Positions 5,782-9,628 of a stretch of DNA of 34,925 bases are shown in pieces. A program made the translations under genes and the position numbers. The stretch spans positions 1 to 34,925 of the forward strand of contig JACQZF010000076.1 of assembly GCA_016213945.1 (NCBI GenBank). Reading direction: 5' to 3'. Positions within the stretch are counted from its first letter, which is position 1. The number at the start of each line of letters is the position of its first letter. Source of the DNA: Nitrospirota bacterium. GTDB taxonomy: Bacteria > Nitrospirota > Thermodesulfovibrionia > UBA6902. The notes below the pieces were generated by a model. The model worked only from the letters and a program-made list of their open reading frames with translations, made no database searches and was not told the DNA's origin.

Positions 5782-6474
5782 ATGACACAGGAACGATCAA
5801 AACTATGGTATCTCAAAAATCTTGATATCTTCCGCTATCTCGGAGATGAAGAATATAAATTGCTCGACCGGTATTCCAATATGAGAGAAATAAAAAAAGG
5901 GGAAATGATATATTTTCAGGGATCCTCCGACAGCAATTTCTACATTCTGAAAAAGGGAGCCGTCAAGATTACAAAGCTCACTCCTCGGGGAAATGAAATC
6001 ATCCTCGATATACTTTCAGTCGGCACCATCTTCGGCGAAATGACGGTCTTGGAACCCCGGGAACGGGACGAATCCGCCATTGTAATCGAGGACGGGCTGA
6101 TATGCATTATGAATAGAGATGAATTCAACAGGTTCTCAAAGATGGTGCCGGGGCTTTCCGGCAAGATGACTTCGATGATCGAACTCAAACGCTGGAATAG
6201 AGAGAATAAAATACTTGACCTGCTCTACTGTACGGTTGAGCAGAGACTTGCGAAGGCTTTTATTAATCTCCTTGACGACTTCGGGATCCCTCATGACAAC
6301 GGACATTTGTTGCAGATCAGACTCACCCACAAGGACTATGCCGACCTTATCGCATCCACAAGAGAGACGGTCACCGCGACGCTCAATAAATTTAAAGCTG
6401 ACGGGCTTATTGATTTTGAAAATAAATATATTATGATCAAGTCGCTCGATAAAATCAGGGGCATGGCTGAATGA
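5782..6474 (+). CDS. Crp/Fnr family transcriptional regulator (paralogue 1)
   Basis: This 230-residue regulator has an N-terminal cyclic nucleotide-binding-type beta-roll (about residues 12-125; FILKKGAVKITKL-like core, GTIFGEM), a dimer helix and a C-terminal winged helix-turn-helix (about 150-225) with THKDYADLIASTRETVTATL. It lacks the four-cysteine iron-sulfur ligand set of true FNR, having only two Cys. The recognition helix RETVTA differs from RETVGR of E. coli CRP in having Ala where CRP has Arg185. It is 68% identical (157 of 230 positions, ungapped count) to the regulator at 13738, with an identical helix-turn-helix. A TGTAA-N6-TTACA palindrome lies upstream, so autoregulation is likely. 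AGGA precedes the ATG by 4 nt. The ligand is unknown. Confidence 0.9.
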   Translation: MTQERSKLWYLKNLDIFRYLGDEEYKLLDRYSNMREIKKGEMIYFQGSSDSNFYILKKGAVKITKLTPRGNEIILDILSVGTIFGEMTVLEPRERDESAIVIEDGLICIMNRDEFNRFSKMVPGLSGKMTSMIELKRWNRENKILDLLYCTVEQRLAKAFINLLDDFGIPHDNGHLLQIRLTHKDYADLIASTRETVTATLNKFKADGLIDFENKYIMIKSLDKIRGMAE

Positions 6475-6658: not shown

Positions 6659-7183
6659 ATGAAAAGAATATTGAGCACATTGATATCGGTTATTATTCTT
6701 TTCATCGTTCCATTAATTTCATCTGCTGATGATAAAACAGATGTATTTCTTGTTCATCTTAAAACAAGCCTGAAGAAAGACGACGCGCAGATATGTGTCG
6801 CCTATAATGTCATGTGGGCGGCGCTGGAAGAGGGATTTAAGGTAAAGGTGCTCATTGATGCTGATGCCATAAATACCTACAAGGTCGGATGGTTCGGCAA
6901 AGACGATATTGAAGCATACAAGATACCGGAAAATCTCAGACAGGAACTCTCGAAACAATTCTCTGCTGATCTCGATGCCGTGCCAAAGACGTACGGAGCA
7001 TTCCTTATAATGCTGAAGGATCGCGGAGTTGAGTTCTATATCAATAAAGAGATGCTGATAGTCTCCAATATTGGAACGCCTGAAGAACCTTTGAAGCAAA
7101 TATCAGCCAAATTTTTCAAATCCGTAGCGCTTAAAGAGATAGTGAGAATGAGAGCTGAAGCAAAATATTATATGGCATACTGA
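6659..7183 (+). CDS. Exported DsrE-fold protein
   Basis: This protein of about 174 residues starts with a signal peptide (MKRILSTLISVIILF, cleaved near SSA-DD). The mature part has a DsrE/DsrF-type alpha/beta fold: an opening strand VFLVHLKTSL, a helix carrying DDAQICVAYNVMWAALEEG and a strand KVKVLIDADAI. Relatives handle sulfur (persulfide relay) or are uncharacterised. Only one cysteine (in QICVAY) remains, at a site that does not look like the DsrE active cysteine, so a direct sulfur-relay role is doubtful. ATG 6659 is preferred over GTG 6650 because AAAAGG (6645-6650) is well spaced for it. The next gene is the UGA-containing glutaredoxin, which suggests a thiol/selenol redox setting. 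Confidence 0.75.
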   Translation: MKRILSTLISVIILFIVPLISSADDKTDVFLVHLKTSLKKDDAQICVAYNVMWAALEEGFKVKVLIDADAINTYKVGWFGKDDIEAYKIPENLRQELSKQFSADLDAVPKTYGAFLIMLKDRGVEFYINKEMLIVSNIGTPEEPLKQISAKFFKSVALKEIVRMRAEAKYYMAY

Positions 7184-7249
7184 AAGTCTTGACACTGAGA
7201 GACGTGTCTATTATGAGAAACGTACAATGAAACCGTAAAGGAGTAATAT

Positions 7250-7486
7250 ATGGCAGAAAAAAGCATTGTCGTTTACAGCCAGACGGGCTGAATGTTCTGC
7301 TCGAAAGTGAAAGAGTATCTTTCACGAAAAGGCGTCATATTTACTGAACGGGATGTTGCCGGGGACGAAGCCGCGATAGATGAATTAAAGAAGATGGGTG
7401 TCATGACCACGCCGGTGACTGTAATTGACGGTGAAATGGTAATCGGGTTTGACATGAAAAAACTGGAACAGTTGTTGAATAAGTAA
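7250..7486 (+). CDS. Glutaredoxin-like selenoprotein (in-frame UGA at codon 14)
   Basis: A good ribosome site (AAAGGAG) precedes ATG 7250. The frame reads MAEKSIVVYSQTG, then TGA (7289-7291), then MFCSKVKEYLSRKGVIF and on to TTPVTVIDGEMVIGFD, 78 residues in all. This is a normal-length glutaredoxin/NrdH-type thioredoxin fold with its cis-Pro motif (TTPV). In relatives the position of the TGA is the first Cys of the CxxC active site, so the protein reads UxxC (U-M-F-C) if UGA is decoded as selenocysteine. A hairpin with bacterial SECIS features starts 16 nt after the UGA (7307-7325). The rest of the frame is intact, which argues against simple decay. Conventional gene calling would start at the ATG after the UGA and lose the active site. 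Predicted role: cytoplasmic dithiol/selenol oxidoreductase. Confidence 0.85.
7292..7325 (+). promoter_or_regulatory. Putative bacterial SECIS of the glutaredoxin gene
   Basis: After 15 unpaired nt following the UGA, GTGAAAG (7307-7313) pairs perfectly with CTTTCAC (7319-7325) around the loop AGTAT. The loop has G at its second position followed by U, as expected for SelB recognition. The loop G lies 24 nt after the last base of the UGA, within the known bacterial range. Confidence 0.7.
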
Positions 7487-8983: not shown

Positions 8984-9628
8984 ATGGCGATGATAAAAAG
9001 AATTACGTTTATTGCTGTGTTGATCATAAGTCTTATTGGCTGCACAAGTCAGGTTGCTCCATCCGTTTCCGTCGTTCGGGAAGACGGCAAGACATACATT
9101 GTGGATAAAACCGGATACAAGTGGGATGTCACCCAGGCAGAATCGATCGGATTCAAGCCTGATAAATTTCAGTATGGTATGGGGAAAGACGCGATTCTCC
9201 CTCTCGATGCTTCCGAGCTGAGTGACGACAAAAAAGACGTCCCTGATGATCTCCGCATCATCGGTGTTGAAGAAGGCCCAACTGCACAGGCGTATTCCGT
9301 GCAAAAGCTCCGCAGTCATGAGGTGGCGAACAGCGCCATCGGATCAAAGCCTATAGCTGTAGGCTATTGACCACTTTCAGACCTGGCGGCTGTGTACAGT
9401 CGCGAGCTTGACGGACAGACATTGACGATTGCGCCTGCAGGCTGGACATACAATAACACCTTTGTATTATATGACAAAGAAAGCGGGACCCTCTGGTATC
9501 CTGAAAGAGGCGGACTAAAAGGCATTCAGGGCAAGTATTTCGGACGGGTCCTTACAAAAGTCTCATCCGAAGATATTCGATGGGGGAAATGGCAGAAGAA
9601 ATATCCGGAATCGAAGATCCTGAAATAG
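8984..9628 (+). CDS. DUF3179 lipoprotein, candidate selenoprotein (UGA at codon 129)
   Basis: AAAGGAGG precedes ATG 8984. The N-terminus is a lipoprotein signal (lipobox LIGC near residue 20). The frame continues through RIIGVEEGPTAQAY, HEVANSAIG and SKPIAVGY, meets TGA at 9368-9370, and continues in the same frame with PLSDLAAVYSRELDG, LYDKESGTLWYPERG and WGKWQKKYPESKIL to a TAA, 214 residues in all. Both halves align end to end with DUF3179, whose hallmark is a YCPLC motif. Here the first Cys is the UGA codon and the second is Ser (Y-U-P-L-S). A SECIS-like hairpin follows with the same geometry as in the glutaredoxin gene. Selenocysteine is therefore the best reading; a nonsense mutation is the alternative. 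The function of DUF3179 is unknown; surface redox chemistry is my inference. Confidence 0.8.
9371..9403 (+). promoter_or_regulatory. Putative bacterial SECIS of the DUF3179 gene
   Basis: Fifteen nt separate the UGA from GCGGCTG (9386-9392), which pairs with CAGTCGC (9397-9403; one G-U pair) around the loop TGTA. The loop has G at its second position followed by U. The G is 24 nt from the UGA, identical to the glutaredoxin element, while the stem sequences are unrelated. Confidence 0.65.

Follow-up and report, generated by a model that had tools for sequence, protein, structure and literature searches.

The glutaredoxin-like gene considered here lies on a 34,925-nucleotide stretch of DNA (the window) from a Nitrospirota bacterium and contains one in-frame TGA, which raises the question of whether this codon breaks the gene or is translated as selenocysteine (Sec) at the active site of a redox protein. 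The first-pass annotation had proposed the latter, a UxxC selenoprotein with a frame that is intact from a good ribosome site to the stop except for one TGA, which falls precisely on the first Cys of CxxC. Translation with TGA read as U (MAEKSIVVYSQTGUMFCSKVKEYLSRKGVIFTERDVAGDEAAIDELKKMGVMTTPVTVIDGEMVIGFDMKKLEQLLNK) bore out this description: the TGA is the sole internal stop, the frame ends with TAA, and the ATG at 7250 is preceded by a good ribosome site (AAGGAGTAATATATG). The protein matched the Pfam Glutaredoxin family over residues 6-64 (62.7 bits, cut-off 22.9; 3.9e-17). The best NCBIfam model was the YruB-family TIGR02196 (76.6 bits over residues 6-77, short of the cut-off, 88.55), and the remaining 17 NCBIfam models listed for the protein likewise scored below their own cut-offs, among them NrdH TIGR02194 with 52.8 bits against 85.75. 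The AlphaFold model has a thioredoxin-like fold (mean pLDDT 88.5) with the predicted elements E6-10, H15-26, E32-35, H40-49, E56-59, E62-65 and H69-77, so that residue 14, directly before helix 15-26, sits in the active-site position of the fold, at the N-terminal end of helix 1. Positions of the features discussed are collected in the table.

Table. Features of the window around the glutaredoxin-like gene, with the basis of each assignment.
Feature	Position	Strand	Description and basis
Crp/Fnr-type regulator	5782-6474		upstream neighbour
Predicted ribosome site AAGGAG	7238..7243	+	upstream of ATG 7250; from sequence
Glutaredoxin-like gene, predicted selenoprotein	7250..7486	+	78 codons, Sec codon 14 (U-M-F-C); translation with TGA=U, Pfam PF00462
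TGA, predicted selenocysteine	7289..7291	+	column of the first active-site Cys; TGC/TGT in 17/17 distant stop-free homologues aligned
Codon 17, second (resolving) Cys of UxxC	7298..7300	+	invariant, 10/10 close copies
Predicted SECIS hairpin GTGAAAG-AGTAT-CTTTCAC	7307..7325	+	folding, codon freezing, pairing across relatives, bSECIS model (PMC13188914)
DUF3179 selenoprotein gene (candidate)	8984..9628	+	Sec codon 129, TGA 9368-9370, own hairpin; separate from the glutaredoxin gene

A narrow search for relatives covered 61 genomes, the bacterium's own and 60 others, 19 of which contained a glutaredoxin-like match (23 matches listed). The ten best copies come from eight genomes altogether and comprise the gene itself, a paralogue on another contig of the same genome (C46) and eight further genes; the nine other copies are 58-70% identical to it. 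In each of the ten the frame is open but for a single TGA, which always falls in the same column and has conserved residues on both sides; P55 of the Thr-Pro motif is invariant among them. The remaining 13 of the 23 matches are 30-38% identical, free of stops and have TGC or TGT at the TGA column. Thus the close relatives are all Sec-type and Cys is found only at a distance, which upholds one half of the expectation that relatives would have Cys at codon 14: it holds for the distant homologues and fails for the close ones, which without exception have TGA. Further damage in related copies had been named as a sign of decay, and what was found is the same TGA in frames that are otherwise intact. 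In addition, a scan of genome contigs returned four loci, the same genes as the copies in G024, G010, G025 and G014, all in MAGs with Nitrospirae or Thermodesulfovibrio in their names; no relative of the gene was found in the viral contigs scanned. A wider search of 230 genomes of the class (E up to 1e-10) gave 39 matches in 37 genomes, 31 of them with one TGA and eight stop-free. Five of the stop-free genes were examined (four plus G059), and 28 of the 31 TGA genes entered the hairpin survey described below, that is, all but three distant matches without a locus (G210, G215 and G217).

Eighteen distant TGA genes among the 28 (families f16 and f20) read U-x-D-C. These glutaredoxin-like genes (L051-L070) form a sister clade with a homologous SECIS hairpin. 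Two genes similar to this group (L050 and L062), which count among the 17 Cys-codon homologues compared below, have a TGC/TGT codon instead of TGA, the pattern that an exchange of Sec for Cys would leave.

Next to the TGA the first-pass annotation had reported a perfect 7-bp hairpin with the loop AGTAT, and this was located as described: it starts at the 16th nucleotide past the TGA, and, with A and U at the loop ends paired as an eighth base pair, a GUA triloop is left. The bSECIS model, as given in the accessible text of PMC13188914, has a loop of 3-9 nt, a stem of 4-16 bp, a distance of 16-37 nt from the UGA and an MFE of at most -7.5 kcal/mol, with a G within the first two loop positions and mostly the loop N1-G-[G/U]-N-N2, in which N1 and N2 are paired. 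A check against bacterial SECIS constraints had been suggested, and the hairpin lies within all of these limits, with the loop GUA (or the 5-nt AGUAU with A-U paired), 8 bp and 22-23 nt from the UGA; the 45 nt that hold it fold with -10.4 kcal/mol. The MFE alone is modestly unusual (z -2.07, 7 of 200 shuffles folding equally well). Of the 780 plus-strand TGA triplets of the window, counted in any frame, just one has an equally good hairpin at SECIS distance; taking every position of both strands, this holds for 155 of 69,690 (0.2%). Rfam gave nothing above thresholds over the window and only sub-threshold hits near the glutaredoxin gene.

The strength of the case for the hairpin comes from comparative evidence and not from free energy alone. 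Where two of the ten close copies have the same residue, they also share the codon in 273 of 282 comparisons (97%) at codons +6 to +12 past the UGA, compared with 773 of 1667 (46%) in the rest of the gene, a freezing of synonymous sites that has its centre at the hairpin. When codon columns were shuffled, the best 7-codon window matched the observed value in 15 of 20,000 trials, in a test that ignores kinship. Furthermore, 27 of the 28 TGA genes keep 7-8 of the 8 pairs at the fixed hairpin position, where 17 homologues with a Cys codon have 1-6. The lone exception is L055, where 3 of the 8 pairs remain and a different fold would be required. Between the close copies and the U-x-D-C group, G-C gives way to C-G at the outer pair; in three genes the loop-closing pair changes from A-U to G-C. 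Counted over 26 distinct rows, among them L055, 95.2% of the cells are paired, 12 cells have double-sided changes (none of 500 shuffles reached this) and the covariation score is 0.277, against 0.023-0.109 with the partner slid. Judged on these comparisons of sequences, we take the hairpin to be the SECIS element.

The genome should also provide the means of decoding. The genes selA, selB, selC and selD, proposed earlier as a check, are all present: selA (626 bits) adjoins selB (360.7 bits) on contig C18, the tRNA-Sec scores 73.9 bits, above the cut-off, with the anticodon tca (ARAGORN), and selD (L041, G000:C91:8229-9143) scores 328.7 bits. The latter has one in-frame TGA near its N-terminus and its product is probably a Sec-containing selenophosphate synthetase, a protein that appears in the table of a selenoprotein review, as far as the accessible part of that source goes. 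By its gene content the bacterium can make and insert selenocysteine. Since selB is present in 207 of the 230 genomes of the class, its presence is necessary and not discriminating, and co-occurrence is uninformative. At E 1e-60, selB was not found in two of the eight genomes with close copies, G024 (88% complete) and G025 (78% complete), which are the least complete of the eight if G001 is set apart. G025 has selA and a tRNA-Sec over the cut-off, and in G024 neither selA nor a tRNA-Sec over the cut-off was found.

Taken with the TGA in Cys position, these data bear on three accounts that do without selenocysteine. A lone in-frame TGA could arise by one nonsense mutation, as in a glutaredoxin pseudogene, or through a sequencing error, yet a chance lesion of this kind would have to recur in ten copies from eight separately assembled genomes, each with no other stop and with the flanking residues conserved, and would leave the freezing of synonymous codons around the hairpin unaccounted for; we give this account practically no credence. 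Translation might instead start at the ATG at 7292, directly 3' of the TGA, giving a 64-aa protein that lacks the first active-site residue. The corresponding frame, 7292-7486, does exist, and the earlier remark that conventional gene callers would place the start behind the UGA is mechanically right. Nevertheless, ATG follows the TGA in only six of the ten close copies, the other four having ATT, ATC or ATA, while the 13 codons before the TGA are conserved and stand behind a ribosome site, and the shortened product would lose strand 1 as well as the nucleophile, so that such a start is very improbable. Reassignment of UGA throughout the genome, for instance to Trp or Gly, would be in line with two window genes that read through TGA; in opposition to it, TGA is the stop of 7 of 24 selected window genes and is internal only in the two selenoprotein candidates, a hairpin follows both internal TGAs and the Sec machinery is complete, which leaves this idea with hardly any probability. 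Pseudogene, internal start and reassignment were all rejected. It is almost certain, in our judgement, that the product of the gene is a small glutaredoxin/NrdH-like redoxin of the dithiol, UxxC type with a Sec nucleophile predicted to be put in by SelB at the hairpin. The reading as a UxxC selenoprotein glutaredoxin gained support from the machinery, the conserved TGA, the SECIS element and the distant Cys homologues.

From the anatomy of the gene and its conservation we infer Sec insertion at codon 14, where SelB with Sec-tRNA(Sec) would bind the hairpin just 3' of the UGA. The selenolate, at the N-terminal end of helix 1, would then attack the disulfide of a target or a comparable oxidised group, and resolution of the selenenylsulfide would fall to Cys17; these roles are assigned because of the known dithiol glutaredoxin mechanism. 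The source of electrons can be proposed with less assurance. A selenoprotein reduced by glutathione or another low-molecular thiol would be a true glutaredoxin in the biochemical sense, and both the Pfam match and the name of the closest solved relative, Grx1, favour this. On the other hand, a gshB gene (glutathione synthetase) had no match in the genome, which is 97.9% complete, in a search confined to gshB that found this gene above the cut-off in 3 of 14 control genomes. Likewise, the YruB and NrdH models outscore the Grx3 models of NCBIfam, and the paralogue (on G000:C46, in the region L072:1953-6462) is divergent to a thioredoxin-reductase-like gene (310 bits, under the cut-off of 343, with a CAIC motif), as is its counterpart in G004. 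Reduction by glutathione is accordingly judged rather unlikely. Instead, because no glutathione synthetase was found and the paralogue adjoins the thioredoxin-reductase-like gene, electrons would probably come from a thioredoxin-reductase-type flavoenzyme, which is a weaker inference than that of Sec itself: such a neighbour is present in two of nine relative loci (the paralogue in L072 and the copy in L079), and none stands next to the gene inside the window. The protein is likely a Sec-based dithiol reductase, perhaps fed by an enzyme of this type; a role in repair or as a peroxide-linked reductase would be a guess.

The neighbourhood of the gene is not conserved and says little on function. 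Between the Crp/Fnr-type regulator and the glutaredoxin gene, the frame 6659-7183 (+) encodes a protein with a signal-like N-terminus that looks DsrE-like by eye only and has no Pfam or NCBIfam match. Neither this secreted protein nor the Crp/Fnr regulator, c-type cytochrome, transaldolase or DUF3179 genes were found near the copies in L073-L078. Near L072, L079 and L080 there are other cNMP-binding proteins, with ~18-32% identity, and the paralogue in L072 also adjoins tandem proteins with two cNMP-binding domains and a rhodanese domain. The candidate DUF3179 gene, 1.5 kb downstream of the glutaredoxin gene, contains the motif VGYUPLS (U129) and had matches in 9 of the 61 genomes, all nine with TGA; exceptional among these are G022, with an additional TAA, and G035, where the gene is in two pieces. 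In the nine loci read, its own included, the TGA is followed by a hairpin of the type GCGGCTG-TGTA-CAGCCGC. DUF3179 is already listed in selenoprotein tables, in the parts of these that were available.

A clear and conserved lineage of Sec-redoxins is thereby added for Nitrospirota-type genomes. Since the gene, its paralogue and the three sister-clade members scanned all score under every NCBIfam cut-off, automatic annotation would tend to record a truncated protein without the active site. Moreover, the genes make a useful comparative data set on the bacterial SECIS, in which a hairpin in coding sequence is synonymously frozen and has compensatory changes between two redoxin clades. A broader scheme can be offered tentatively, as possible though short of probable: a clade of obligate-Sec redoxins centred on Thermodesulfovibrionia, with the U-x-D-C clade as its sister and with Sec and hairpin ancestral, might operate as a glutathione-free selenol-redoxin system driven by thioredoxin reductase. 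For wider biology the finding is an ordinary one, a known selenoprotein family in one more lineage.

Among known proteins, the best PDB match both by sequence and by fold (7c10; rmsd 0.8) is cGrx1 of Clostridium (Alkaliphilus) oremlandii (PDB 7c10, 7c12), 48% identical over 73 residues without gaps. The protein and cGrx1 are both small Grx of the dithiol type in which the nucleophile has the same position; in contrast to U-M-F-C in the former, the deposited cGrx1 chain reads C-P-H-C, with Cys as the nucleophile. Native cGrx1 is presumably the C. oremlandii selenoprotein, in agreement with two paper titles (Kim et al. 2011; Lee et al. 2014), the first of which pairs the selenoprotein Grx of this species with its selenoprotein MsrA. 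C. oremlandii possesses a Sec-containing MsrA as well, whereas the only MsrA found in the Nitrospirota genome has no in-frame stop, and a Sec-MsrA partner of the C. oremlandii kind is thus unsupported. Of the NCBIfam families, YruB TIGR02196 is the closest model, and the protein, in which Sec replaces the first Cys, falls below its cut-off. The glutaredoxin-like Uxx-star families, selenoproteins by name, also score below their cut-offs (NF041212, 52.6 against 66; NF041211, 39.5 against 100; NF041114, 25.6 against 72); Uxx-star families 1 and 2 are UxxT and GxGU according to the accessible part of a review, unlike the present protein, which keeps the second Cys. Within the text available for each source, the UxxC selenoprotein Grx family (PF00462) is entered in the prokaryotic selenoprotein tables of PMC13188914 and PMC9312934, and the Sargasso Sea survey counted ten Sec-containing glutaredoxins of the UxxC type (PMC1088965); the Grx entries in these portions name no Nitrospirota example. 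Pfam family PF00462 and the UxxC motif are common to these proteins and to the one described here. As UxxC Sec glutaredoxins are already in print, the gene belongs to a known selenoprotein kind, of which, on sequence evidence, it appears to be a well-supported new bacterial example.
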